From Lachnospiraceae bacterium (GTDB lineage: Bacteria > Bacillota > Clostridia > Lachnospirales > Lachnospiraceae), in NCBI GenBank assembly GCA_017428265.1, contig JAFRRD010000031.1:1-41045 (forward strand): DNA of 41,045 nucleotides. The letters are read 5' to 3'. The position numbers and the translations under genes were made by a program. Below the pieces are notes generated by a model that searched no databases, was not told the DNA's origin, and was given only the letters and a program-made list of their open reading frames with translations. Shown in pieces: positions 2,201 to 14,721 of this stretch. Every line of letters begins with the position of its first letter. The stretch's first letter is position 1.

Positions 2201-2230
2201 TTGACAAAGCGCTGCGGAGGGTGATAGACT
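2201..2230 (+). promoter_or_regulatory. Sigma-70-type promoter of the glycine cleavage operon
   Basis: A perfect -35 box TTGACA (2201-2206) is followed after 18 bases by TAGACT (2225-2230), a 4/6 match to the -10 box. It lies 34 bases before the first riboswitch aptamer, as expected for a riboswitch leader. The start of transcription would be near 2237. Confidence 0.7.
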
Positions 2231-2263
2231 GATTTCAGCAAAATTCGAAAAAGTCGGTTGAAC

Positions 2264-2414
2264 GGTTCGGGAGAGAGCGCTTTTTTCGTGCGCCGCCGAA
2301 GGGGATAAAAACTCTCAGGCAAAAGGATCGGATCGGGACGAAACTCCGAAAAGTGTGATCTATACACGCCGAAGGTGCAACCCGCAAGGGGAATCTCTCA
2401 GGCTTGAAACGGAG
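2264..2414 (+). ncRNA. Tandem glycine riboswitch (two aptamers)
   Basis: Two consecutive glycine aptamers. Aptamer 1 spans 2264-2334: its closing stem pairs GGTTCGG (2264-2270) with TCGGATC (2328-2334), and the conserved core includes GAGAG, 'GCCGAAGG' and 'ACTCTCAGGCAAAAGGA'. Aptamer 2 spans 2344-2414: its closing stem pairs CTCCG (2344-2348) with CGGAG (2410-2414), with core 'GCCGAAGG' and 'TCTCTCAGGC'. The short linker and double architecture are typical of gcvT-type glycine riboswitches. The 3' strand of the aptamer-2 closing stem abuts the following terminator, so glycine binding should disfavour termination and turn the operon on, as in the known Bacillus switch. The ON direction is inferred. 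Confidence 0.93.
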
Positions 2415-2448
2415 GCATGAAGACCTTTGGTCTTCGTGCCTTCTTTTT
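2414..2448 (+). terminator. Rho-independent terminator, riboswitch expression platform
   Basis: GGCATGAAGACC (2414-2425) pairs over 12 bp with GGTCTTCGTGCC (2429-2440) around a TTT loop, followed by TTCTTTTT. Its base shares G2414 with the aptamer-2 closing stem and can extend by A2413-T2441, so the two structures compete at their base. Confidence 0.85.
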
Positions 2449-2501: not shown

Positions 2502-5147
2502 ATGAGTGAACTGAAACGGACACAGCTTTATGACATCCATGTGGCGGCAGGCGCCACGATGGTGGACTTCGGCGGCTGGGAGATGCCGGTGCAGTACCCG
2601 ACGGGTATCGTGGCCGAGCATCTGTACACCCGCAGCAAATGCAGCCTCTTTGACGTCTCGCATATGGGGCGCCTGCTGGTGGAGGGATCCGAACGGGTCG
2701 CTTTCCTGCAGCACGTCGTGAGCGCGAACGTCGAAGGCCTTCTGCCCGGCCGCGCGATGTACTGCATCCTGCCGGATGAAGACGGCAGCGCCGTGGACGA
2801 CGCCTACCTCTACCGCTTTGAGGAAGACCGTCTGCTGCTCGTCGTGAATGCCGCGAACATCGACAAGGATCTGACGCATTTAAACGGACTGATCGGCGGC
2901 TATGACTGCAGGATCACGAACATTTCCGCGGACTGGGCCTGCATAGCGGTCCAGGGGCCGGCCAGCAAGGACATGCTGATGACGCTTTCGGGCGGCGTGC
3001 CGGTCACGGAACCCATGAAGAATTACGTGAATACCGTGCAGTTGGAAGGCCGGGAAGCTAAGATCGCCAAGACCGGCTACACCGGCGAACCGCTCGGCTA
3101 CGAGGTCTTCGTGAAGACGGAAGACGGCGCCTGGCTGTGGAACCGCCTCTGCGAACTCGGCGCCCGCCCGGCCGGTCTCGGCGCCCGCGATACCCTGCGC
3201 CTCGAAGCGGGACTTCCGCTCTACGGCCATGAGATGGGGAAGGATCCTGAAGGCGTCCCGATGCCCGTCTATTCCGCGCCGGTCGCCCGCTTTGCCGTGA
3301 GTTTCGCGCCGCAGAAGGGCGAATACATCGGCCGCGCCGCGCTGGCAAAACAGTACGAAGCCTACCAGCGGATCATGAACCGCGACGACAGCGACAATTC
3401 AGCTCTGCCGCGCCGCATCCAGTGCATCGCGCTCCTTGACCGCGGCGTCATGCGCGCGGGCATGCCCCTCTATAAGGGCGACAGGCAGGTCGGCTGGGTC
3501 ACCAGCGGGACCATGGTGCCTTTCTATAAGGCAGAGGGCGAAGGCCTCGAATCCGTGATCACTGAAGAGGTCATGAAGCGTGCGATCGGCATGGCCTACG
3601 TCGACAGCGACATCCGTCCGGACGACGAAGTGGAAGTGGATATCCGCGGAAAGCGCATCCGTGCCGTCATTGCGGAACGCCACCTCGATACCATGGCGCC
3701 GCCTTTTGCGCGCCCGATCATTTACGGCTACACGCTCGCAGAGCACGCACCGGAAGAGGGAAGCCGCCTCGAAAAGGCCGTCCGCCTCATCGGAAAGGCT
3801 GCGGACAACCACGAGTGGCGCCAGCGCCGCTGCATCAACCTGATCCCTTCGGAGAACACGCCTAGCCGCGCCGTAAGGCTCCTTTCCTCGTCCGATCCGA
3901 GCGGCCGCTACGCCGAACACAAGACCGTGAAGTCCTTCTATGACAAGGACATTTTCTACTACCAGGGCACGAAGTTCATCGACTGGGTCGAGCAGCAGCT
4001 GGTGGAGGAGATGAAATATTACCTCGGTTCGAAGGAGGCTGAGACGCGCGTCACCAGCGGCCAGATGGCCAACACGGCAGTCTTCTCGGCCCTCATGGAT
4101 TTCAAGAACCGCCTGAACCGCAAGGTGACGCCCAAACGCCTCGGCTACGTTCTGAACAACCACATCATCAAGGGCGGGCATCTTTCGGCGCAGCCCATGG
4201 GCGCGCTGCACGACTACATCGCCGTGGATCCCGTGACCGAGCAGAACGCGATCGTCAACTTCCCGGTCTGCCCCGACAACATTTATAAGATCGACGTCGA
4301 GGAGACCAAGAAGGTCATTGCCGAGTACAAGCCCGAACTGATCATCTTCGGCAAGAGCATGGTGCTCTGCAAAGAGCCCGTGGCCGCGATCCGGAAGTTC
4401 GTGGACGAACAGGGCATCAAAACCACGATCATGTACGACATGGCGCACGTGCTCGGCCTCATCGGCCCGCACTTCCAGGAACCCTTCAGGGAAGGCGCGG
4501 AGATCGTGACCGGCTCGACGCACAAGACCTTCTTCGGCCCGCAGCGCGGCGTGATCGGCACGAACTGGGACGAAGACGATCTGAAGTACGAGCTGTGGGA
4601 GACCATCCAGAGACGCGTCTTCCCGGGCAGCGTTTCCAACCACCACCTCGGCACGCAGCTCGGCCAGCTCATGGCGGCTTACGAGATGAACACCTTCAAG
4701 GATGAGTACCAGAAGGCAGTCGTTTCGAACGCAAAGCACTTTGCGAAGGCTCTCGCGGCACGCGGCCTCACGGTCGAAGGCGACCCGGCCATGGATTACA
4801 CCGAGACCCACCAGGTGATCGTAAGCGTCGGCTACGGCAAAGGCGCAGAGGTCGCTGAGCGGCTAGAGCGGAACAACATCATCGTGAACTACCAGGCGAC
4901 GCCCGACGAGGAAGGCTTCACGGCCTCCGGCGCGCTCCGCATGGGCGTTTCCGAGATGACCCGCTTCGGCTTCGGTCCTGCGGAATTCGATAAGGTGGCC
5001 GACCTCATCGCAGACTGCGTCCTGAACGGAAAGGAAGTCGGTGAGGATGCTGCCGCGCTCCGCGGCGGTTACACCGCCATGCGCTACTGCTTCAGCGACG
5101 AAGAACTCGGCGAAGCGCTTGACCGCCTTGCCGGCATGCTGAAATAA
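2502..5147 (+). CDS. Fused aminomethyltransferase (GcvT) and serine hydroxymethyltransferase-like protein
   Basis: An 881-residue fusion. Residues 1 to about 410 are GcvT, the tetrahydrofolate-dependent T protein of the glycine cleavage system: 'DFGGWEMPVQY', 'FDVSHMG', the 'VDD' motif with the presumed catalytic Asp, and 'RDTLRLEAGLPLYGHEM'. From about 425 on it is a PLP enzyme of the serine hydroxymethyltransferase family: 'IPSENTPSRAV', 'SGQMANTAVF', and the PLP lysine K675 in 'TGSTHKTFFGPQRG'. The SHMT half is divergent: the usual YAEGYP segment reads YAEHKT (470-475). GcvT makes methylene-tetrahydrofolate from glycine; SHMT uses it with a second glycine to make serine, so the fusion could couple both. 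No stop or frameshift lies between the halves. The start is set by GGGAGG at 2490-2496. It is the first gene behind the glycine riboswitch. Confidence 0.92.
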   Translation: MSELKRTQLYDIHVAAGATMVDFGGWEMPVQYPTGIVAEHLYTRSKCSLFDVSHMGRLLVEGSERVAFLQHVVSANVEGLLPGRAMYCILPDEDGSAVDDAYLYRFEEDRLLLVVNAANIDKDLTHLNGLIGGYDCRITNISADWACIAVQGPASKDMLMTLSGGVPVTEPMKNYVNTVQLEGREAKIAKTGYTGEPLGYEVFVKTEDGAWLWNRLCELGARPAGLGARDTLRLEAGLPLYGHEMGKDPEGVPMPVYSAPVARFAVSFAPQKGEYIGRAALAKQYEAYQRIMNRDDSDNSALPRRIQCIALLDRGVMRAGMPLYKGDRQVGWVTSGTMVPFYKAEGEGLESVITEEVMKRAIGMAYVDSDIRPDDEVEVDIRGKRIRAVIAERHLDTMAPPFARPIIYGYTLAEHAPEEGSRLEKAVRLIGKAADNHEWRQRRCINLIPSENTPSRAVRLLSSSDPSGRYAEHKTVKSFYDKDIFYYQGTKFIDWVEQQLVEEMKYYLGSKEAETRVTSGQMANTAVFSALMDFKNRLNRKVTPKRLGYVLNNHIIKGGHLSAQPMGALHDYIAVDPVTEQNAIVNFPVCPDNIYKIDVEETKKVIAEYKPELIIFGKSMVLCKEPVAAIRKFVDEQGIKTTIMYDMAHVLGLIGPHFQEPFREGAEIVTGSTHKTFFGPQRGVIGTNWDEDDLKYELWETIQRRVFPGSVSNHHLGTQLGQLMAAYEMNTFKDEYQKAVVSNAKHFAKALAARGLTVEGDPAMDYTETHQVIVSVGYGKGAEVAERLERNNIIVNYQATPDEEGFTASGALRMGVSEMTRFGFGPAEFDKVADLIADCVLNGKEVGEDAAALRGGYTAMRYCFSDEELGEALDRLAGMLK

Positions 5148-5198
5148 AACATATCACGATACAACATCGAAATTCATTTGCCCACAGGAGGAACAATC

Positions 5199-5576
5199 AT
5201 GAATTATCCCGCAAGCTTACAGTATTCCCGCGACCATGAATGGCTCAGTCAGGAAGGCGACATCGCCGTTATCGGCATCACCGACTTTGCCCAGCACGAG
5301 CTCGGTGACGTCGTGTTCATCAATCTGCCCGAGGTCGGCGACGAAGTGACCGCGGGCGAAGCTTTCGGCGACGTTGAATCCGTGAAGGCCGTGTCCGATC
5401 TGCTCAGCCCGGTCACCGGTATCGTTGCGGAGATCAACGAAGAACTGATGGATTCCCCGGAACTGCTGAACGACGATCCCTATGCCAACTGGATCATCAA
5501 GGTGGAACAGGTGACGGATACCGAAGAACTGATGAGCGCCGCGGCCTACGCGGATCTGTGCGAAACGGAGGCATAA
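5199..5576 (+). CDS. gcvH: Glycine cleavage system H protein
   Basis: A 125-residue lipoyl carrier protein that shuttles the aminomethyl group between the P, T and L proteins. The lipoylation lysine is K63 in 'GDVESVKAVSDLLSP', and the family signature 'HEWL' (13-16) and 'ITDFAQHELGDVVF' are present. I chose the ATG at 5199 because AGGAGG lies 8 bases upstream; an in-frame ATG at 5178 has no ribosome-binding site and would add seven unrelated residues. Length is normal for GcvH (about 125-130). The gene is 51 bases after the fusion gene and one base before gcvPA. Lipoate attachment enzymes and the L protein (dihydrolipoamide dehydrogenase) are not in the window. Confidence 0.95.
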   Translation: MNYPASLQYSRDHEWLSQEGDIAVIGITDFAQHELGDVVFINLPEVGDEVTAGEAFGDVESVKAVSDLLSPVTGIVAEINEELMDSPELLNDDPYANWIIKVEQVTDTEELMSAAAYADLCETEA

Positions 5577-5577
5577 G

Positions 5578-6894
5578 ATGGGCAGTTACATCCCTTCTTC
5601 CGAAGCGGAAAGACGGGAGATGCTGGAAGCCCTCGGCATGGAAAGCGTCCGGGAACTCTATAAGGACGTTCCGGAAAGCGTACTGCTTGACCGGCCGCTT
5701 AACCTGCCGGAAGGCCTCAGCGAGATGGAAGTGCGGGCAAAGCTCGAGGACATGGCGAAGCTCAACAGGAACTACAGGATCATCCTGCGCGGCGCCGGCG
5801 CCTACGACCACTACATCCCCTCCATCGTCCGCTACATCCCCGCGAAAGAAGAATTCCTGACGGCCTATACGCCATATCAGGCAGAAATGAGCCAGGGCGT
5901 GCTGCAGTCCATTTTCGAGTACCAGACCATGATCTGCGAACTGACCGGGATGGACGTGTCGAACGCCTCGGTCTACGACGGCGCGAGCGCGGCGGCTGAG
6001 GCAGCTGCGATGTGCCGCGACCGGAAGCGGAGCGTCACCCTGATCTCCGAAACCGTCCATCCTGACGTCATCAACACGGTCCGTACCTACTGCTACGGTG
6101 CGAATGCCGAACTGAAGGTCGTGCCGGCGAAGGATGGGAAGACCGACCTTGCCGCCCTGAAGGAAATGCTCGCGGCCGATACCGCCGGGGTGATCTTCCA
6201 GCAGCCGAACTTTTTCGGCCTCTTTGAGGACGCGGAAGAGATCATCGCCGCGGTCCACGAAGCCGGTGCGATGGCGGTCATGAGCTGCAATCCGATCGCG
6301 CTTGCCGTCATGAAGACGCCGGGCGAACTGGGTGCGGACGTTGCGGTCGGTGAAGGCCAGCCTCTGGGACTTCCCCTTGGCTTCGGCGGCCCGTATCTCG
6401 GCTTCATGGCGACCACGCAGAAGCACATGCGGCGCCTGCCCGGCCGCATCGTCGGCGAGACTGTCGACAGCCGCGGCGGCAAAGCCTACGTCCTTTCCCT
6501 GCAGGCAAGAGAGCAGCATATCCGCCGGGAAAAGGCCAGCTCCAACATCTGCTCGAACGAGGCGCTCTGCGCCCTGACGGCCGGCCTGTACATGGCGACA
6601 ATGGGCCCTGACGGCATGGCCGAAGTTGCCCGCCAGTGCATGGCGAAGGCGCATTATCTGGCGTCAAAACTCGTCGAAGCCGGCTGCCGGCTGGAGTACT
6701 CCGGCAGATTCTTCCATGAATTCGTGACCCGGCAGGAGAACTGCCGGGAGATCCTCGGCGCGCTTTCCGATGAAGGTATTCTGGGCGGCCTGCTGCTTCC
6801 TGACGGCGAAAGCATCCTCTGGTGCGTGACCGAGAAGGCATCGAAAGAAGCGCTGGATGAAGTCGCGGACATCGTAAAGGAGGCACTCGCATGA
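5578..6894 (+). CDS. gcvPA: Glycine dehydrogenase (aminomethyl-transferring) subunit 1
   Basis: The 438-residue N-terminal half of the split P protein, as in Bacillus and Clostridia. Together with GcvPB it forms the PLP-dependent glycine decarboxylase that releases CO2 and loads the aminomethyl group on GcvH. Family features include 'YIPSSEAERREML' at the N-terminus, 'GAGAYDHYIPSIVR', 'TAYTPYQAEMSQGVLQSIFEYQT', 'YDGASAAAEAA' and 'GGPYLGFMA'. This subunit has the aminotransferase fold but no PLP lysine, as expected. The ATG is one base after the gcvH stop, and the gene ends in an ATGA overlap with gcvPB, so translation is probably coupled. Confidence 0.95.
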   Translation: MGSYIPSSEAERREMLEALGMESVRELYKDVPESVLLDRPLNLPEGLSEMEVRAKLEDMAKLNRNYRIILRGAGAYDHYIPSIVRYIPAKEEFLTAYTPYQAEMSQGVLQSIFEYQTMICELTGMDVSNASVYDGASAAAEAAAMCRDRKRSVTLISETVHPDVINTVRTYCYGANAELKVVPAKDGKTDLAALKEMLAADTAGVIFQQPNFFGLFEDAEEIIAAVHEAGAMAVMSCNPIALAVMKTPGELGADVAVGEGQPLGLPLGFGGPYLGFMATTQKHMRRLPGRIVGETVDSRGGKAYVLSLQAREQHIRREKASSNICSNEALCALTAGLYMATMGPDGMAEVARQCMAKAHYLASKLVEAGCRLEYSGRFFHEFVTRQENCREILGALSDEGILGGLLLPDGESILWCVTEKASKEALDEVADIVKEALA

Positions 6895-8297
6895 AACTGA
6901 TTTTTGAAAAAAGCATGCCCGGCCACCGCTCGGATCTTCTGCCGGCGCTTGACGTTCCGGCTTTTGACCTTCCCGTGTCCATGAAGCGCGCGGAAAAGCC
7001 GGCTCTGCCGGAACTTTCCGAGACCGAAGTTTCCCGCCACTATACCGAACTGGTGCAGCAAGTGCATGGCGTCAACTGCGGCTTCTATCCGCTCGGCTCC
7101 TGTACCATGAAATACAACCCGCGCATCGACGAGGAAACGGCGGCGCTTGAAGGATTCACGCACGTCCACCCGCTTGCGGACGCACGCGATACCGCCGGCT
7201 GCCGCAAGGTGCTGGAGACCGCGAAGGAACTGCTCTGCGAGATCACGGGCATGGACGACATGACCTTTGAACCCGCGGCCGGCGCGCACGGCGAATTCAC
7301 CGGCGTGCTGCTGATCAAGCAGTACCACAAGTCTCGCGGCGACGAGGCGAGACGGAAGATCATCGTGCCGGACTCCGCGCACGGGACCAATCCCGCGACC
7401 GCGGCCATGTGCGGCTTCGACGTCGTGAACATCGCCTCCGGTCCCGACGGCCTGGTCGATCTGGACGCCCTGAAGGCGGCGCTCGGTCCGGACGTGGCCG
7501 GCCTCATGCTGACCAATCCGAACACCGTCGGCCTCTTCGACAGCAACATCCTGGAGATCACCAGACTCGTGCACGAGGCAGGCGGCCTGTGTTACTACGA
7601 CGGCGCGAACCTGAACGCGGTCATGGGCGTGGTCAGACCCGGCGACATGGGCTTCGATTGCGTGCACCTGAACCTCCACAAGACTTTCGCGACGCCTCAC
7701 GGCGGCGGAGGACCCGGCGCCGGCGCGGTCGGCTGCAAAGCCTTCCTTGCGGACTTCCTGCCCCGCTCCGTGACCATGGACGGTCCCGGCCGCCTGCAGG
7801 TCAGAAGCTTTGCCGGCAACTTCCTCGTGGTCGTGAAAGCCCTCACCTACATCCTGACCCTCGGCCGGGAAGGCATTCCGGAGGCCGCCGAAAACGCGGT
7901 CCTGAACGCGAACTACCTGATGGAAAAGATCAAGGGCACCTTCGAGCCCGCCTTCGACCGCGTGTGCATGCACGAATTCGTACTGACGCTGGATAAGTAC
8001 AAAAAAGAGACCGGCGTCTCCGCTCTGGACGTGGCCAAGTCGCTGATCGATTACGGCATGCATCCGCCGACAATGTACTTCCCGCTGATCGTGCACGAAG
8101 CACTGATGCTGGAACCGACGGAGACGGAAAGCAAGGCCACGCTCGACGAAGCCGCAGAGATCTTCCGCAAACTGTACAAGCAGGGCTTTGAAGATCCGGA
8201 GACCATGAAGACCGCCCCGCATCACGCAGCCATCGGAAGGCCTGACGAAGTCAGGGCAGCGCGAAACCCCGTCCTGCGGTGGAAGAAGGAAGTGTAA
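6891..8297 (+). CDS. gcvPB: Glycine dehydrogenase (aminomethyl-transferring) subunit 2
   Basis: The 468-residue C-terminal half of the split P protein. It carries the PLP lysine K264 in 'HLNLHKTFATPHGGGGPG', and 'YPLGSCTMKYNPR', 'HEFVLT' and 'MHPPTMYFPL' are all family hallmarks. It forms the active site with GcvPA. The start overlaps the gcvPA stop by four bases (ATGA), with AAAGGAGG about 10 bases upstream. Length is normal (about 480). It is the last gene of the glycine operon, followed after 8 bases by a strong hairpin. Together the operon supplies T, H and both P subunits plus an SHMT-like domain; only the L protein is missing and is presumably shared with other dehydrogenases elsewhere. 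Confidence 0.95.
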   Translation: MKLIFEKSMPGHRSDLLPALDVPAFDLPVSMKRAEKPALPELSETEVSRHYTELVQQVHGVNCGFYPLGSCTMKYNPRIDEETAALEGFTHVHPLADARDTAGCRKVLETAKELLCEITGMDDMTFEPAAGAHGEFTGVLLIKQYHKSRGDEARRKIIVPDSAHGTNPATAAMCGFDVVNIASGPDGLVDLDALKAALGPDVAGLMLTNPNTVGLFDSNILEITRLVHEAGGLCYYDGANLNAVMGVVRPGDMGFDCVHLNLHKTFATPHGGGGPGAGAVGCKAFLADFLPRSVTMDGPGRLQVRSFAGNFLVVVKALTYILTLGREGIPEAAENAVLNANYLMEKIKGTFEPAFDRVCMHEFVLTLDKYKKETGVSALDVAKSLIDYGMHPPTMYFPLIVHEALMLEPTETESKATLDEAAEIFRKLYKQGFEDPETMKTAPHHAAIGRPDEVRAARNPVLRWKKEV

Positions 8298-8305
8298 AGA
8301 AAAAC

Positions 8306-8355
8306 GATAACGCAATGCGTCCCGGAAGAAATCTTCCGGGGCGCATTGCGTTATC
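8306..8355. terminator. Strong hairpin closing the glycine operon
   Basis: GATAACGCAATGCG (8306-8319) pairs perfectly with CGCATTGCGTTATC (8342-8355), and an inner CCCGGAAG/CTTCCGGG stem continues it around AAAT. On the + strand it is followed by only a short pyrimidine run; on the - strand it would be followed by GTTTTTCTTT. It most likely ends the glycine transcript with moderate efficiency. Confidence 0.65.
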
Positions 8356-8375
8356 CGGCTTTCCTGCGCTATAAT
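8346..8375 (+). promoter_or_regulatory. Candidate promoter for the DUF5058 gene pair
   Basis: A perfect -10 box TATAAT (8370-8375) lies 18 bases after TTGCGT (8346-8351), a weak -35 box matching three of six positions. The -35 box is embedded in the 3' arm of the preceding terminator hairpin. The predicted start is near 8382, about 25 bases before the gene. Confidence 0.55.
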
Positions 8376-8405
8376 TGCGGTATCAGCTTCAAAGGAGGCT
8401 TTCCC

Positions 8406-9152
8406 ATGCTCAAAACGCTGAACAGTCCCACCATGTATCTGATCTGCGGCGCCATCGTCTTATTTGTCGCCGGGGTCTCGGTCTTTTTCATGGTCCGCGC
8501 CTGGCGCGCCGGTATCGCCATCGGCATGGATAAGACGAAAATGAAGCGCACGATCACGGCCAGTGCCACCTTCTCCGTACTGCCGAGCCTGGGCATCCTG
8601 CTCGGCGTCATCGCGCTTTCCGGCGCCCTCGGCACGCCCCTGCCCTGGCTGCGCCTCTCCGTCATCGGCGCCCTGCACTATGAGACCCAGGTGGCTGAAG
8701 CCGCGGCGGAAGCGGCAGGCCTGTCCGGTCTTTCCGCCTCGGAAATGACGCCGACGGCCTTTGTCACAATTGCCTTCCTCATGGCGGTCTGTATCATGTG
8801 GGGCATGGTCTTTTCTGTTTTCTTCAGCAAGAAATACCTGAAGAAGCTCGGCGCGGGCGGCGCGAAGACGGCCAAGGCCGGCGGCTTCGGCGACGCTGCC
8901 ATGACAGCGATGTTCATCGGCCTCGTCTCGGCTTACATCGGCAGCTATATCGGCGGTTTCGTGTCTGAAAAAGGCCTCTTCACGTTTAAGGGCAGCTGGA
9001 TGCCGCTGCTCGTTGCCGCAGTCTCCGCGGCCGTGATGGCGCTGTTCATCCGGATCGAAGAAAAGAAGAAGGCCGAGTGGGTGGAAGGCTTTGCCCTTGC
9101 TGCCAGCATGCTCGCCGGCATGGCTGCCGCAGCGATCGCGGCCGCGCTGTAA
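8406..9152 (+). CDS. DUF5058 family polytopic membrane protein
   Basis: A 248-residue very hydrophobic protein that I match to the DUF5058 family; the biochemical role is unknown. I count about six membrane segments: near residues 11-33, 55-75, 115-140, 160-185, 192-212 and 222-246. Conserved-looking polar stretches are 'MDKTKMKRTI' in the first loop and 'GALHYETQVAEAAAEAAG'. The start is the ATG at 8406 because AAAGGAGG lies just upstream; an in-frame ATG at 8346 lies before the likely promoter start and is discarded. It is followed after 12 bases by a second membrane protein gene, so the two are cotranscribed and probably work as one complex, possibly a transporter (inference). Family assignment is from memory of sequence style. 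Confidence 0.65.
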   Translation: MLKTLNSPTMYLICGAIVLFVAGVSVFFMVRAWRAGIAIGMDKTKMKRTITASATFSVLPSLGILLGVIALSGALGTPLPWLRLSVIGALHYETQVAEAAAEAAGLSGLSASEMTPTAFVTIAFLMAVCIMWGMVFSVFFSKKYLKKLGAGGAKTAKAGGFGDAAMTAMFIGLVSAYIGSYIGGFVSEKGLFTFKGSWMPLLVAAVSAAVMALFIRIEEKKKAEWVEGFALAASMLAGMAAAAIAAAL

Positions 9153-9164
9153 GGAGGTGCGAAG

Positions 9165-9863
9165 ATGGAAGAGAAAAGAATCGTCCTTACGGAAGAAGAG
9201 AAAGCGAAAACCTTCGAGACCTACAATGAGCGTACGCACGTCATCGGCCGCGTCGTCTGCATTGCCACCCTGATCCTGCTGACCGGGGCGCCCTTCCTTA
9301 TGGGAGCTTTCCTCGGCGCGATGCCGGACTTCAAGGCGGTCGGAAGAGGCTTCCTCTCGATCGGCATCGTCTATTTCGTGAGCTGCATCGCGGAATTCCT
9401 GGTCTATACGCCCATGCTCGGCGCGGGCGGCACCTATCTTGCCTTCATCACCGGGAACCTCATCAACATGAAGATTCCCTGCGCCATGAACGCGAGGGAC
9501 ATCGTGGGCGCGAAGACTGGCACCGCGGAGAACGAGATCATTTCCACGCTGTCGATCGCGACTTCGTCGCTTGTCACCATCCTCGTGCTGGCGGCAGGCG
9601 TCGCGCTGCTCATCCCGCTGCAGCCCATCCTGCAGAATCCGGCGCTCCAGCCCGCCTTCGACCAGGTCGTTCCGGCCCTTTTCGGCGCCATGGCGTACAA
9701 GTACTACCGGAAGAACATCGGCACGGCCGTCTGGCCGCTCCTTATTATGAGCATCCTGTTCATGCTGGTGCCGAGCCTTACCGGTTCCACGAGCTTCATG
9801 ATCATCCCGAGCGGCGCCATCGCGATCCTGGTTGCCTGGATGAAGTATAAAAAGACGAAATAA
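9165..9863 (+). CDS. Polytopic membrane protein, partner of the DUF5058 protein
   Basis: A 232-residue membrane protein that I cannot name. The N-terminal 30 residues are charged and cytoplasmic in style, then about six hydrophobic segments follow (roughly 32-53, 63-85, 87-103, 127-152, 172-190 and 192-224). The glycine-rich 'GAGGTYLAFITGNLINMKIPCAMNAR' stretch between segments resembles a re-entrant loop of a transporter. 'GTAENEIISTLSIATSSLVT' is another well-structured region. It has an AAGGAGG ribosome-binding site and sits 12 bases after the DUF5058 gene. A two-subunit permease is the simplest reading, and the position next to the glycine operon hints at an amino-acid substrate, but neither is shown by the sequence. 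Confidence 0.6.
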   Translation: MEEKRIVLTEEEKAKTFETYNERTHVIGRVVCIATLILLTGAPFLMGAFLGAMPDFKAVGRGFLSIGIVYFVSCIAEFLVYTPMLGAGGTYLAFITGNLINMKIPCAMNARDIVGAKTGTAENEIISTLSIATSSLVTILVLAAGVALLIPLQPILQNPALQPAFDQVVPALFGAMAYKYYRKNIGTAVWPLLIMSILFMLVPSLTGSTSFMIIPSGAIAILVAWMKYKKTK

Positions 9864-10030: not shown

Positions 10031-11428
10031 TTACTCTGCTTCGGGACCGCACATAGGGAGAGAGGCCGCGGCAGCGGATTGTCCGACACGGCGGAAACGT
10101 TCGTCCGGAAGAGCCAGAGAGAGCGGAAGCTCCGGGTACTCGTCGCTCAGGACGTCCCGGCAGGTCCTGACGATGATCTCGCCGCCTTTTCCGGACATGA
10201 CGCGCCCGAGCAGGAGCACGTTTTCACAGGCATACAGATCGTAATAATACGCTAGCGAATGCGCCAAATATACGCCGATGCTGCGGTAAACGGCCGAAGC
10301 CCGCGGATCGTCGGCTTCGGCAAGGGCCTGTACGGCCTTCAGCTTTTCGGCCGGAGAGAGAGCTTCGTCAAGGTCGATGCCTGCGGCAGGCGCCAGCTTG
10401 ATGACGGCGTCCTGGGAGAAATACTTGACGCCGCAGCCGATGTCACCGCTCCACTCGTCACGCAGCGCGCCGGGTGCCGCATCGACGGGAATGAAGGCCA
10501 GTTCGTTCAGCCAGCCCGTGATCTGGCCTGATGCATCTACGAAGCCCGCGGCTTCACTCGTGCCCATGGCAATGCCGAGCAGATCGTTCTTCTTCAGGCT
10601 GAGCGCGCCGGCAAGTGCCGTCACGTCCCCGTCGTTTGCAACACTGAGAGGAATGTCACCGAAGGTGTCGCGGACTGCCCGGATGTAGATGTCGCGCACT
10701 TTCAGCGCCTGCACATCTTCCGGCACCTTAAGGAAGAGAGAGGCGATCATCGTGCGGTTGTTCAGAAAGATCCCCGCCGAGGACACGCCCACGGCATCCA
10801 CACGCGGCAGGTGGGCGGCGGCGGAGCGCAGTGCGGAAACGATGCCCTCGTAATGGTAGTCGGGGTCGGTCTGCGTCTTCGGGAACCAGACGACCTCTTC
10901 GGAAAAGACCGGCTTGCCGTCGATCACAGCCGAGACCTTGCGGTCGCTGCCCCCGGCGTCGAAGCCGATGCGGCAGCCCTCGAGATGCCCGCCGATCGTC
11001 TGCGGCAGGTCGCGCGTTTCCGGAAGCACGTCCGTCTTCACGACCTCAAAGGGATGCTCAAAAACTCTCGCCATAAAGCCCCGGTCAAAATCCCGGGAGC
11101 CTCCTTCGGCATAGGCCTCCTTCAGATAGCGGAAGACCTCCTCGCTGCCGCGCACATGAATGCGCCATCCGCCCTTCATCCACAGCAACGTTTTCACGGC
11201 ACGGTCGATGTAATAGAAGTCTGCCTCGCGCATTTCAGGCGTTCCGTGGATAAAGGTCTCAAGCGAAGCCGCCTGGCCGTCATTCCGTTCCACGGCAATG
11301 CCGACCTTCTGCGTAGCTCCGCGGAGGAAGGCCTTGTTGAATACGTGAAGCGGGATAAAACCCGGGTCAAGCTCGGGAAGATTGCGGTAAGTGTATGCAA
11401 TGCCAAGATGTTCCATAAACGTTCTCAC
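10031..11428 (-). CDS. ROK-family protein (putative sugar kinase) with N-terminal extension
   Basis: A 465-residue protein whose part after about residue 150 is a ROK (repressor, ORF, kinase) fold. The phosphate loop reads 'GFDAGGSDRKVSAVIDG', the catalytic Asp is in 'NDGD', and 'GIAMGTSEAAGFVD' follows. The usual ROK zinc motif CxCGxxGC is reduced to 'SGDIGCGVKYFSQ', keeping one Cys. ROK enzymes phosphorylate N-acyl amino sugars or hexoses; the first 150 residues have no known domain to me. It has no helix-turn-helix, so it is a kinase-like rather than repressor-type ROK protein. The GTG start overlaps the regulator stop (GTGA); an ATG four codons downstream is the alternative. It probably acts with the amino-sugar genes transcribed divergently. 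Confidence 0.78.
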   Translation of the reverse strand: MRTFMEHLGIAYTYRNLPELDPGFIPLHVFNKAFLRGATQKVGIAVERNDGQAASLETFIHGTPEMREADFYYIDRAVKTLLWMKGGWRIHVRGSEEVFRYLKEAYAEGGSRDFDRGFMARVFEHPFEVVKTDVLPETRDLPQTIGGHLEGCRIGFDAGGSDRKVSAVIDGKPVFSEEVVWFPKTQTDPDYHYEGIVSALRSAAAHLPRVDAVGVSSAGIFLNNRTMIASLFLKVPEDVQALKVRDIYIRAVRDTFGDIPLSVANDGDVTALAGALSLKKNDLLGIAMGTSEAAGFVDASGQITGWLNELAFIPVDAAPGALRDEWSGDIGCGVKYFSQDAVIKLAPAAGIDLDEALSPAEKLKAVQALAEADDPRASAVYRSIGVYLAHSLAYYYDLYACENVLLLGRVMSGKGGEIIVRTCRDVLSDEYPELPLSLALPDERFRRVGQSAAAASLPMCGPEAE

Positions 11429-12291
11429 TTTTGCGCTGCCGGAGGGTCAGCCGACTCCGGCCGGTGATGTCTGGCATCCGCCGATGTTTTCAGCCCCAGG
11501 GCAGACAGCGTCGCCGAGTGTGCAGACATGGCGGATGAATAGTTTTCACTGATCAGGTTGGAATATAAGAGGTCAAGCATAAACAGCAGCGGGAGCTGGG
11601 GTGATACGACGATCCCCGAAGCCAGGTCCCGCATGGTGCCTGTATGCAGGACAATGTCGCAGCTGCTGTCCGGATCGTGCGAAGCCGTGATCAGGACGGT
11701 CCGCGCTCCCTTCGAACGCGCAAGCTTAAGCGCCTGCAGGATCTCCTTTGTCGCGCCGCTGACGGACAGAGCGATCAGCAGGCTCTTTTCGGTCAGCAGT
11801 GAGGTCATGATCCTCAGCATATGGCTTTCAGTGGCGACTTCCACGTTCAGACCGATACGCAGCAGGCGCATCCGGTATTCCAGCGCGGAGATCCCGGAGT
11901 AGCCGATCCCGCAGATCAGAGTCCGATCCGCTTCGGAGATGTATCCGGCGACCTGCCGGACCGCTTTCTCGTCGACAAATGCGGAGGTCCTTTCCAGCAG
12001 ATAGCGGTAGGAGGTCTCCACCCGGCCCATCTCGGGATCGGTCAGAGGCGTTTTTTCCGATACTGCAGGTTCGGGATAGGAGAAGCGGAGCTCACGGAAG
12101 CCATGAAAGCCGCAGCGCTTGGCAAAACGCGTAAGTGCTGCTTCGGAAATGAACAGCTCGCGCGCTATCGCACCGGAAGAAGGAAGCTCGTTTCCGCGAT
12201 AATACAGCAGATAATCAGCGACTCTTCTTTCCGTCGGACTGAAGCTTTCGTACTGTTCCCTGATCCTGTGTCTGATGAGATCCGTGTTCAT
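11425..12291 (-). CDS. RpiR/MurR-family transcriptional regulator (HTH plus SIS domain)
   Basis: A 288-residue regulator. Residues 1-75 are the RpiR-type helix-turn-helix ('SFSPTERRVADYLL', 'SEAALTRFAKRCGFHGFRELR'); residues about 100-240 are a SIS sugar-phosphate isomerase fold, with 'ICGIGYSG' (126-133) and 'LSVSGATKEILQAL' forming the ligand site. Such regulators sense phosphosugars, for example MurNAc-6-phosphate or glucosamine-type phosphates. It is transcribed away from the hyuA-nagA operon, with 282 bases between them holding both promoters and repeated CTTTCA/TGAAAG half-sites, so it very likely controls that operon and itself. The start ATG has GGAAGG upstream. The C-terminal tail after 265 is low-complexity and unassigned. 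Confidence 0.88.
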   Translation of the reverse strand: MNTDLIRHRIREQYESFSPTERRVADYLLYYRGNELPSSGAIARELFISEAALTRFAKRCGFHGFRELRFSYPEPAVSEKTPLTDPEMGRVETSYRYLLERTSAFVDEKAVRQVAGYISEADRTLICGIGYSGISALEYRMRLLRIGLNVEVATESHMLRIMTSLLTEKSLLIALSVSGATKEILQALKLARSKGARTVLITASHDPDSSCDIVLHTGTMRDLASGIVVSPQLPLLFMLDLLYSNLISENYSSAMSAHSATLSALGLKTSADARHHRPESADPPAAQK

Positions 12292-12573: not shown

Positions 12574-14721
12574 ATGAAAGTCAGGATCGGCATTGATGTA
12601 GGCGGTACCTTCACGGACGCGGTGGCCGTCAATAACGATACGTATGAAATAATCGGCATGGTAAAGGTGCCGACGACCCACGACGCGCCGCACGGCGTTG
12701 CCGAAGGGATCATCCAGGCTCTGCACCAGGTCATTGATCAGAATCATATCAATGTGGACGACGTCTGCTTCATCGCGCACGGCACGACACAGGCGACGAA
12801 CGCTCTGCTGGAGGGGGATGTTGCCCGGGTCGGCATCGTGACGATCGGCAGCGGCCTCGAGGGCAGCAAGTCGAAGAGCGATACCAACATCGGTTCCATC
12901 GAACTGGCAAAGGGCAAATTCCTGACCACGGAAAATGCCTTCGTTGACAGCAGCGATCCGGCGGCGATCGATAAGCAGATCCTTGCCGCACTGGATGATT
13001 TGAAGACCAGAAAGACCGAGGCCTATGTCGCAGCGGAGGCCTTTAGTGTAGACAGGCCGGAGCACGAAGAACGCGTGATGGCGCTCTGCGCGGAAAATGA
13101 TCTTCCCGCGACGGCAACGAACCATATTTCCAAACTGTACGGGCTGCGCGTGCGAACCCGCACGGCCGTGGTCAACGCGAGTATTCTGCCCAAGATGCTG
13201 GACGCCGCCAATATGACCGAAGAGTGCATCAAGGAAGCCGGGATCAAGGCACCGCTGATGATCATGCGCTGCGATGGCGGCGTCATGACGGTCGATGAAG
13301 TGAGACGCCGCCCCATCCTGACGACGCTTTCCGGCCCTGCGGCAGGCGTTGCCGGCGCGATGATGTACGAAAAACTGACCATCGGCCTCTTCTTCGAGGT
13401 CGGCGGCACCTCCACCGACATTTCCTGCGTGAAGGACGGCAAGGTCGTCGTCAAATATGCGGAGGTCGGCGGCCACAAGACCTACCTCAATTCGCTGGAC
13501 GTGCGCACGGTCGGTATCGGCGGCGGTTCCATGGTGCAGCTGGAGGGCGGAAGGGCCGTCAACGTCGGTCCGCGGAGCGCACATATTGCCGGCCTGAAAT
13601 ACGAAGTCTATACGGATTCCTCGGATATTGAGAGCCCGGTTTTGAAATCTGTCCGCCCGAAGGAGGGCGATCCCGAATACGCGTATATCGAATGCGCGAA
13701 CGGGAAGAAATACGCCCTGACCCTGTCCGGCGCCGCCAATATCTGCGGCTACGTGAAGGAAGGTGACTATGCCGCCGGGAATGTGGAAGCCACCCGTAAG
13801 GCATGGACACCGCTTGCCGCGAATATGGGCATCTCAGTTGAGGAGGCCGCCCGCAAGGTCCTCGAATTTTCCGCGGCCAAGAACGGCGCAGTGGCAGCAG
13901 CCCTCATCAAGGATTACAATATGGATTCCCGCACGACCGTCTTCGTGGGCGGCGGCGGAGGCGCCTCCGTGGTCGTGCCGCATCTGGCCGAGACCATGGG
14001 ACATAAATTTAAGATCGCGAAGAACGCTCCGGTCATCTCCACGATCGGCGTGGCTCTGGCCATGGTCCGCGACATGGTCGAGCGCACCATCCTGAACCCG
14101 ACCGAGCAGGAGATCCTGGAAGTCCGCCGCGAGGCGGAGAAGCTGGTCCTGGAAGCCGGCGCAGATCCGTCCTCCATTGAGATCTCCATTGAGATCGACA
14201 ATAAGCGGAACATTGTGCGGGCTACGGCGATCGGCGCCACCGAGCTGCGCACCAAGAACCTGCTCGACAAGGAACTGAGCGACGACGAGCTCCTCGCCAA
14301 GGCCGCTGAGCAGATGAATGCCGATAAAGAAAAACTGAGGATCACCGGCCGCAGCGACCATATGCTCGCCGTGCAGTACGACAAGGTAGAAAAGAGCCTG
14401 CTGATCTTTAAGAAGCGGACCACGCCGCTTGCCCTGATCGACGACGAAGGCGTGGTGCGCATCCAGAAAAAGGACGGCCACGTGATCGCAACGCCCGCCT
14501 CCGGCTGGAAGAAGGCCGTACGGAAGATGCTCGGCGAATATGCCGTCTACGATGACCGCGGCCATCAGCTGCCGAACCTCTACATCGTGGTCGGCAAGAA
14601 GATCATCGACCTGACCGGCCTTGTGGAAGACGCACAGGCGATTTCTATCGCCGAGGTCGAAATGGCGGCTGTGAAGGATGAGGAACCCATCCTCGTCGTG
14701 GCCAGCCACCCGAACGATTAA
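12574..14721 (+). CDS. Hydantoinase/oxoprolinase family protein (HyuA type)
   Basis: A 715-residue protein of the HyuA family, with the actin-like ATPase N-terminus 'IGIDVGGTFTDAVAV' (residues 5-19), 'AHGTTQATNALLEG', 'RCDGGVMTVDE', 'TLSGPAAGVAGA' and 'EVGGTSTDISC'. HyuA proteins open cyclic amides such as 5-oxoproline, hydantoins or N-methylhydantoin with ATP, or serve as ATPase subunits of carboxylases, usually with a HyuB partner. No hyuB is present here. After about residue 505 the sequence continues for 210 residues in a region I do not match to the standard family end. It is the first gene of the operon, with a GGGGA ribosome-binding site. The reaction is unknown; activation or ring opening of a lactam substrate is a reasonable inference. 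Confidence 0.85.
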   Translation: MKVRIGIDVGGTFTDAVAVNNDTYEIIGMVKVPTTHDAPHGVAEGIIQALHQVIDQNHINVDDVCFIAHGTTQATNALLEGDVARVGIVTIGSGLEGSKSKSDTNIGSIELAKGKFLTTENAFVDSSDPAAIDKQILAALDDLKTRKTEAYVAAEAFSVDRPEHEERVMALCAENDLPATATNHISKLYGLRVRTRTAVVNASILPKMLDAANMTEECIKEAGIKAPLMIMRCDGGVMTVDEVRRRPILTTLSGPAAGVAGAMMYEKLTIGLFFEVGGTSTDISCVKDGKVVVKYAEVGGHKTYLNSLDVRTVGIGGGSMVQLEGGRAVNVGPRSAHIAGLKYEVYTDSSDIESPVLKSVRPKEGDPEYAYIECANGKKYALTLSGAANICGYVKEGDYAAGNVEATRKAWTPLAANMGISVEEAARKVLEFSAAKNGAVAAALIKDYNMDSRTTVFVGGGGGASVVVPHLAETMGHKFKIAKNAPVISTIGVALAMVRDMVERTILNPTEQEILEVRREAEKLVLEAGADPSSIEISIEIDNKRNIVRATAIGATELRTKNLLDKELSDDELLAKAAEQMNADKEKLRITGRSDHMLAVQYDKVEKSLLIFKKRTTPLALIDDEGVVRIQKKDGHVIATPASGWKKAVRKMLGEYAVYDDRGHQLPNLYIVVGKKIIDLTGLVEDAQAISIAEVEMAAVKDEEPILVVASHPND

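Follow-up and report, generated by a model that had tools for sequence, protein, structure and literature searches.

The fusion gene and its domains

We describe a gene in which the T protein of the glycine cleavage system (GcvT, aminomethyltransferase) and a pyridoxal 5'-phosphate (PLP) enzyme of the serine hydroxymethyltransferase (SHMT) family are encoded in one reading frame. The gene lies in a 41,045-nucleotide stretch of DNA from a Lachnospiraceae bacterium (contig JAFRRD010000031.1, assembly GCA_017428265.1), referred to here in its whole length as the window. The fusion is genuine and recurrent. Its 881-residue product is likely to be a natural bifunctional aminomethyltransferase/SHMT, completing the conversion of two glycines to serine in one glycine-induced operon. 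As judged from sequence comparison, the C-terminal half very likely has SHMT activity and the whole protein is very likely bifunctional. The gene and its parts are as follows:

2502–5147, forward strand: GcvT-SHMT fusion, open reading frame (ORF) of 881 amino acids with an ATG start and an uninterrupted frame
2502–3731, forward strand: GcvT (T-protein) half, residues 1–410 (Pfam GCV_T and GCV_T_C; PRK00389, TIGR00528; PDB 1yx2, 1woo)
3717–3776, forward strand: linker, residues about 406–425, weakly constrained (proportion of nonsynonymous differences, pN; low-confidence model stretch)
3765–5144, forward strand: SHMT-family half, residues 422–881, PLP lysine K675 (Pfam SHMT; PDB 4bhd/4uqv; residue check)

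Pfam models match the GcvT folate-binding domain (GCV_T) at residues 9–248 (E 8.8e-74), the GcvT C-terminal barrel (GCV_T_C) at residues 358–394 (E 4.5e-12) and SHMT (PF00464) at residues 433–836 (E 1.2e-41, 143 bits versus a cut-off of 27). The GcvT half also passes the NCBIfam cut-offs of PRK00389 (322 vs 300) and TIGR00528 (263.8 vs 235.85). An earlier reading of the window, made from its letters alone (the sequence-only reading), had proposed a single 881-codon frame holding a complete GcvT and an SHMT-family half; the ORF and the Pfam matches bear this out, and the domain borders (about 1–410 and 425–881) and coordinates that it gave were right. Taken as a whole, that reading stood in part: the fusion and its riboswitch operon hold, the SHMT half is not an ordinary GlyA, and the architecture is no one-off.

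Recurrence of the fusion

A contig scan with an alignment of SHMT halves confirmed 473 relatives, and the locus counts given here refer to the best 80 of these 473. The fusion junction is present in all 80, and 78 carry more than 200 aligned residues of both halves in one frame; in L124 the frame breaks within the GcvT half, with the junction still in one frame, and L125, cut by a contig end, starts mid-gene. Since the junction recurs in 80/80 loci, chance or assembly error is excluded, and the probability that a sequencing or assembly error fused two adjacent genes is close to nil. The 80 include the complete genome of Oscillibacter valericigenes Sjm18-20, and the junction is also found in the single-contig genome G241. 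Together with the signs of purifying selection on both halves described below, this disposes of the error that the sequence-only reading had considered, loss of a stop between the halves. Some copies are less intact: L124, L044 and G1123 C20 have a frame break or an in-frame TAG, which may reflect assembly error or decay. The genome of L148 (G577) has two fusion-type SHMT matches, C3 and C9, with frames of 886 and 980 amino acids, apparently two fusions.

The carriers are mostly labelled Oscillospiraceae or Clostridiales, in addition to members of the window's genus. Those with names are O. valericigenes Sjm18-20, O. ruminantium GH1, Candidatus Faecousia and metagenome-assembled genomes (MAGs) labelled Mogibacterium; many further Oscillospiraceae, Clostridiales and Clostridia MAGs carry the fusion, and the three loci nearest to the window (94–98%) are MAGs labelled Lachnospiraceae. 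Any match at all was found in 863 plasmid records, and identity above 60% only in Vescimonas fastidiosa. There the fusion (NZ_AP023416.1 366692–369337, L033) lies on an 861-kb replicon labelled plasmid, with a glycine cleavage operon that includes lpdA and 5-formyl-tetrahydrofolate cyclo-ligase (FCL). In this one annotated record the fusion product is named gcvT alone.

Genome samples separate the fusion sharply from other SHMTs. With the whole fusion as query, the sample of the window's family (100 genomes) gave 2035 bits for the window's own genome and then 211, the fusion being absent from the 99 others. In the class sample (391 genomes, SHMT half as query) it occurs in five of 390 other genomes at 700–733 bits, with frames of 884–924 codons and the next match at 143. 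In the phylum sample (398 genomes, SHMT-half profile) it occurs in one of 397 other genomes (G692, 936 bits, frame 918), followed by 160 bits. The search for this architecture across Clostridia, which the sequence-only reading had recommended, therefore shows that it recurs; one carrier in the sample searched lies outside the class.

One of the five class-sample carriers, G241, we infer to be Acetobacterium woodii; its gene order, gcvH-fusion-gcvPA-gcvPB, fits the gcvHTP operon described in PMC8407422. According to that paper, expression of the A. woodii glycine cleavage genes in Eubacterium limosum increased the growth rate 2.25-fold, and section 8 names GcvT solely as an aminomethyltransferase. 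No description of a T-protein/SHMT fusion was found in the literature searched, a search that mostly did not reach subscription papers.

Catalytic residues, selection and structure model

Conservation was assessed in a model alignment of 67 rows, namely the window and 66 of the 80 loci; six partial or frame-broken loci, six mis-picked ones, L086 and L109 were left out. In the GcvT half D99, D100 and R229 are invariant, so that both the catalytic Asp and the GARD motif are found. D100 aligns with residue 96 of the T. maritima T-protein (1woo), the catalytic Asp of that enzyme. In the SHMT half Y470, E472, Y486, Y487, H560, S619, D646, H649, K675 and R813 are invariant, and the nine of these checked as catalytic positions (all except Y486) are conserved in 19 of 19 aligned fusions. 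E472 and Y486/Y487 match Glu57 and Tyr64/Tyr65, which contact the folate in the E. coli enzyme; R235, K346 and N347, used below, are likewise E. coli numbers. The identification of a T protein and an SHMT-family PLP enzyme in the sequence-only reading agrees with these results, the catalytic residues being intact in both halves.

Comparisons of five pairs point to purifying selection on both halves: the Nei-Gojobori ratio is 0.03–0.21 for the SHMT half and 0.07–0.24 for the GcvT half, the SHMT half being lower in four of the five. The linker has a pN of 0.29–0.59 in four pairs (0.02 in the fifth) versus 0.03–0.21 in the halves, over 20 codons only.

An AlphaFold model built with 67 sequences has a mean predicted local distance difference test score (pLDDT) of 76.7 and a predicted template modelling (TM) score of 0.70, with low values in the linker at 398–402 and 411–414. 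Foldseek matches the N-terminal half to the T-protein 1woo (TM by target 0.89). The best match of the C-terminal half is 4bhd (E 9.3e-27, TM by target 0.74, root-mean-square deviation 10.8, the model being poor in parts).

Glycine riboswitch and operon

The regulatory elements ahead of the fusion and the genes behind it are the following:

2201–2230, forward strand: sigma-70-like promoter match, TTGACA-18 bases-TAGACT (consensus scan only, 10/12 matches)
2258–2340, forward strand: glycine riboswitch aptamer 1 (Rfam RF00504, 62.7 bits, gathering score 32)
2344–2414, forward strand: glycine riboswitch aptamer 2, in tandem (Rfam RF00504, 36.7 bits, gathering score 32)
2411–2448, forward strand: intrinsic-terminator-like hairpin, candidate expression platform (pattern scan and RNA fold)
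5199–5576, forward strand: gcvH (NCBIfam gcvH above cut-off for the listed ORF 5178–5576)
5578–6894, forward strand: gcvPA (NCBIfam PRK00451, 573 bits)
6891–8297, forward strand: gcvPB (NCBIfam PRK04366, 677 bits)

The fusion had been read from the letters as the first gene behind a glycine riboswitch, and this is confirmed by the two RF00504 aptamers upstream and by gcvH (whose ATG at 5199 has GGAGG ahead of it), gcvPA and gcvPB downstream. An operon with the genes for the H protein and a split P protein is the context of a T protein. In the pattern scan the hairpin consists of 15 pairs at 2411–2443 followed by TTTTT, and the RNA fold of 2341–2455 has a z of -4.15. Because the hairpin overlaps the 3' strand of the P1 stem of aptamer 2, which is its last strand, a transcription switch with glycine-ON logic is suggested.

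This arrangement is common to most carriers. In one set RF00504 scores above gathering upstream of the fusion in 9/9 loci; in a second set it lies upstream of the fusion operon in nine of 11 fusion loci (not L205 and L207). Among the 48 loci with full flanks, gcvH, gcvPA and gcvPB homologues are each present in 46 and a homologue of lpdA (dihydrolipoyl dehydrogenase) lies downstream in 34, a count that leaves out L160, with its upstream match of 23%; therefore most of the glycine-to-serine set is usually clustered. An operon link with FCL, considered from the V. fastidiosa locus, is not general: weak FCL-like matches occur in two of these 48 loci (four of all 80), every one upstream of the fusion.

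Directly behind gcvPB, the window has a DUF5058 gene and a gene without a Pfam match (8346–9863), both retained in the near relative L086. Further on lies a hydantoinase/oxoprolinase-like gene (12574–14721), and near it, on the opposite strand, an RpiR-like regulator (11425–12291) and a weak ROK-family match (10031–11428).

SHMT complement of carrier genomes

The genome of the window (2.16 Mb, 95% complete) has one PF00464 match and one PF01571 match, both within the fusion gene; the same searches find PF00464 in 14/14 and PF01571 in 11/14 control genomes. A standalone glyA or gcvT, for which the sequence-only reading had advised a search, was found in neither case in this 95%-complete genome. 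A fusion-type SHMT half is seen in 12 of 15 genus relatives, with the junction visible in 11 and the half in pieces at contig ends in G106. None of these 12 has a second SHMT over the family cut-off; six have a further match of 17–25 bits, under the cut-off of 27. G110 shows the GcvT part only, in a locus that ends at a contig end, and no SHMT, and no SHMT was seen in G114 (67% complete).

A different state is found in G101, a relative of the same genus. It has a riboswitch-gcvT-gcvH-gcvPA-gcvPB operon in which GcvT stops where the SHMT half would begin, and it is the only genus relative with an ordinary SHMT (495 bits), encoded on a different contig:

L201 6329–7897 and L202 2499–4088, minus strand: unfused gcvT operon and ordinary SHMT of G101

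Coexistence was surveyed in 50 genomes, completeness not stated, from which 50 of the best 80 loci come. An ordinary SHMT accompanies the fusion in 20 of them. In the remaining 30, no unfused SHMT match exceeds 33 bits; two of these genomes have weak matches that narrowly pass the Pfam cut-off (32.4 and 28.6 bits).

Lineage and origin of the two halves

The best solved relative of the SHMT half is the M. jannaschii SHMT (4bhd/4uqv, 198 bits; next 117). The SHMT tree comprised 53 rows: the window, two PDB chains, 18 fusion rows taken from 99 and 32 rows taken from 78 that are labelled standalone (the 78 include the partial fusions L044 and L124, plus repeats). All 19 fusion halves cluster together (100/100). 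With the M. jannaschii enzyme and four divergent standalone proteins they make up a larger group (100/100), from which the 29 other SHMT rows are separate. As placed by this tree, the SHMT half is not an ordinary GlyA but belongs to a deep branch of its own on the side of the M. jannaschii enzyme. Its archaeal affinity is a lead and no proof, because the branches are long, long branches meet in the tree and the bootstrap is unsettled. Unfused close relatives of the fusion-type SHMT were not seen in the partial genome samples.

The standalone proteins L062/L203, L063, L188/L204 and L189, which group with the M. jannaschii SHMT, have Cys at the equivalent of Glu57 and differ at other folate-side positions as well. 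They are probably PLP enzymes other than SHMT.

For the GcvT tree, 30 fusion rows were taken from 98 and 21 rows labelled standalone from 24, in addition to the window; L046 (the same gene as L201) and the partial fusions L045 and L124 were omitted. The fusion halves fall on one side of a branch with 67/73 support, seen in 71% of bootstrap trees, and together with the free GcvT of G101 they have 100/100 support. That GcvT lies on the fusion side on a long branch (1.58). Because its precise position is uncertain, we regard it as likely but unproven that G101 lost the SHMT half, and the free GcvT may instead come from a lineage older than the fusion. One old fusion, partly spread by transfer, is the simplest reading.

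Points against bifunctionality and alternative readings

Several observations weigh against the fusion being a bifunctional enzyme that supplies the cell's SHMT. The SHMT half scores 267.4 bits on the NCBI SHMT model PRK00011, whose cut-off is 335, and ten-residue blocks of the structure model at 471–490, 511–580 and 671–710 have a mean pLDDT below 60. On the folate side, Y797/Q798 are found in 19/19 fusions where 28/28 ordinary SHMTs have K/N (K346 and N347 of the E. coli enzyme), and Q681 replaces R235 of the ordinary enzyme. Queries for lpdA, as for the cyclo-ligase and a transporter, gave no match in the window. The pattern in the genus depends on a single switch, G101; all six fusion genomes examined from outside the genus in a further check keep an ordinary SHMT; and 37 of 200 genomes in the O. 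valericigenes family gave no SHMT match. Finally, the window genome has serC, phosphoglycerate dehydrogenase (PGDH)-like genes (below model cut-off) and a Beta_elim_lyase-family gene that may encode threonine aldolase.

Some of these points have a wider setting. Q at the R235 position is also present in all five M. jannaschii-type rows, and the SHMT half of the fusion has three insertions relative to ordinary SHMTs. In the O. valericigenes family sample, queried with the fusion's SHMT half, 15 of the 200 genomes have the fusion type (six without a second match) and 148 only other SHMTs; because 37 genomes (of the 185 without the fusion) gave none, which may stem from incompleteness, divergence or true loss, genomes that seem to lack SHMT are not rare, and such a lack is no proof of need. 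Outside the genus, fusion and ordinary SHMT do not strictly exclude each other: both are present in 20/50 and 6/6 genomes. The serC, PGDH-like and Beta_elim_lyase genes, with one SDH_alpha-family gene that has no NCBIfam name, mean that other serine and glycine routes may exist in the window genome.

The peculiarities of the SHMT half would suit a PLP aldolase or transaldolase, similar to threonine aldolase or fluorothreonine transaldolase, that uses another aldehyde or carrier and does not depend on folate. The Y797/Q798 changes, the extra insertions, the deep separate branch, the score below the NCBI SHMT cut-off and a match to TIGR04506 (fluorothreonine transaldolase) are what such an enzyme might show; that match, however, reaches just 146.6 bits of a cut-off of 650. 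The presumed folate contacts E472 and Y486/Y487 are kept in all 19 aligned fusions, whereas Cys replaces the Glu in the four related standalone proteins, the gene sits in the operon of the neighbouring step, and G101, without the SHMT half, has an ordinary SHMT. We consider a folate-independent aldolase improbable.

Could the SHMT half instead be weak or inactive and act as a dimerising scaffold for the T-protein, with glycine and C1 units coming from other routes? T-protein usually occurs as a monomer and SHMT as a dimer, the structure model has low confidence in parts of the SHMT half, and an ordinary SHMT coexists with the fusion in many genomes, as counted above. A scaffold is nevertheless very improbable, given that K675, the PLP lysine, and the other catalytic positions checked do not vary across the 67 rows, and that in four of the five pairs the Nei-Gojobori ratio is lower for the SHMT half than for the GcvT half.

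Proposed mechanism and significance

In a bifunctional fusion, the GcvT half would take the aminomethyl group from the lipoyl-H protein and yield 5,10-methylene-tetrahydrofolate and NH3, and the SHMT half would add the C1 unit to a second glycine, giving serine, or run in reverse. One glycine-induced transcript with the H, PA and PB genes would then encode most of the set for 2 glycine -> serine + CO2 + NH3. The flux is probably mainly from glycine to serine.

T-protein and SHMT reactions are both reversible, and a bifunctional fusion could also work mainly the other way, running from serine to glycine or in the reductive glycine direction and supplying C1 units and glycine in a serine-driven or CO2-fixing manner, as has been proposed for one-carbon metabolism in acetogens. 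The serC and PGDH-like genes of the window genome would fit such a role. According to PMC8407422, the A. woodii cleavage-system genes are more translated on fructose, and serine-derived glycine is proposed as a methylene-tetrahydrofolate feed for acetogenesis. The glycine riboswitch and the overlap of P1 with the terminator-like hairpin, on the other hand, fit induction by glycine if the ON logic is right, that is, glycine use; a mainly reverse role appears unlikely.

A more far-reaching form of the bifunctional reading, which we put forward only as a tentative possibility, is a dedicated channelling machine. Its SHMT half, with changed folate-side residues and added loops, would draw methylene-tetrahydrofolate mainly from the T half of the same chain, a bound folate shuttling between the two active sites, and this lineage from the M. 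jannaschii side would have taken the place of ordinary GlyA in one genus or more. With transfer of folate within the chain, glycine cleavage and serine synthesis would act as one reaction.

The fusion is a recurrent natural union of two consecutive folate enzymes that share a product. As this product is labile, the old question of methylene-tetrahydrofolate channelling becomes directly testable with it. It also exposes a hidden SHMT: since the V. fastidiosa fusion is annotated as gcvT alone, carriers could appear to lack glyA, with misleading consequences for metabolic models. If G241 is A. woodii, an SHMT-type enzyme would have been carried along in the published gene transfer to E. limosum, which would confound the interpretation of that experiment. 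The fusion may serve as a part for engineering the reductive glycine pathway.

Comparison with known systems

With the known GcvT proteins (1woo, 1yx2) the N-terminal half shares the fold, the catalytic Asp, the operon partners and scores above the NCBIfam cut-offs; those proteins are normally free and of about 360 residues, whereas here the C terminus is fused to a PLP enzyme. The SHMT half is closest in sequence to the M. jannaschii SHMT (4bhd, 4uqv), which is also its best Foldseek SHMT match and shares the C-terminal tail and Q for R235. In contrast to this archaeal standalone enzyme, which is reported to use tetrahydromethanopterin, the fusion half carries Y797/Q798 on its folate side along with three insertions. 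Ordinary bacterial GlyA has the same set of PLP and catalytic residues but only about 25–31% identity, and it lies on the far side of a 100/100 branch.

A GcvT domain and another enzyme on one chain are also found in sarcosine oxidase alpha, dimethylglycine oxidase and trimethylamine N-oxide demethylase, all three matched by PDB sequence and the first two also by fold. There the C1 unit is generated by the partner, an oxidase or a demethylase, whereas in the GcvT-SHMT fusion the partner would use the methylene-tetrahydrofolate product.

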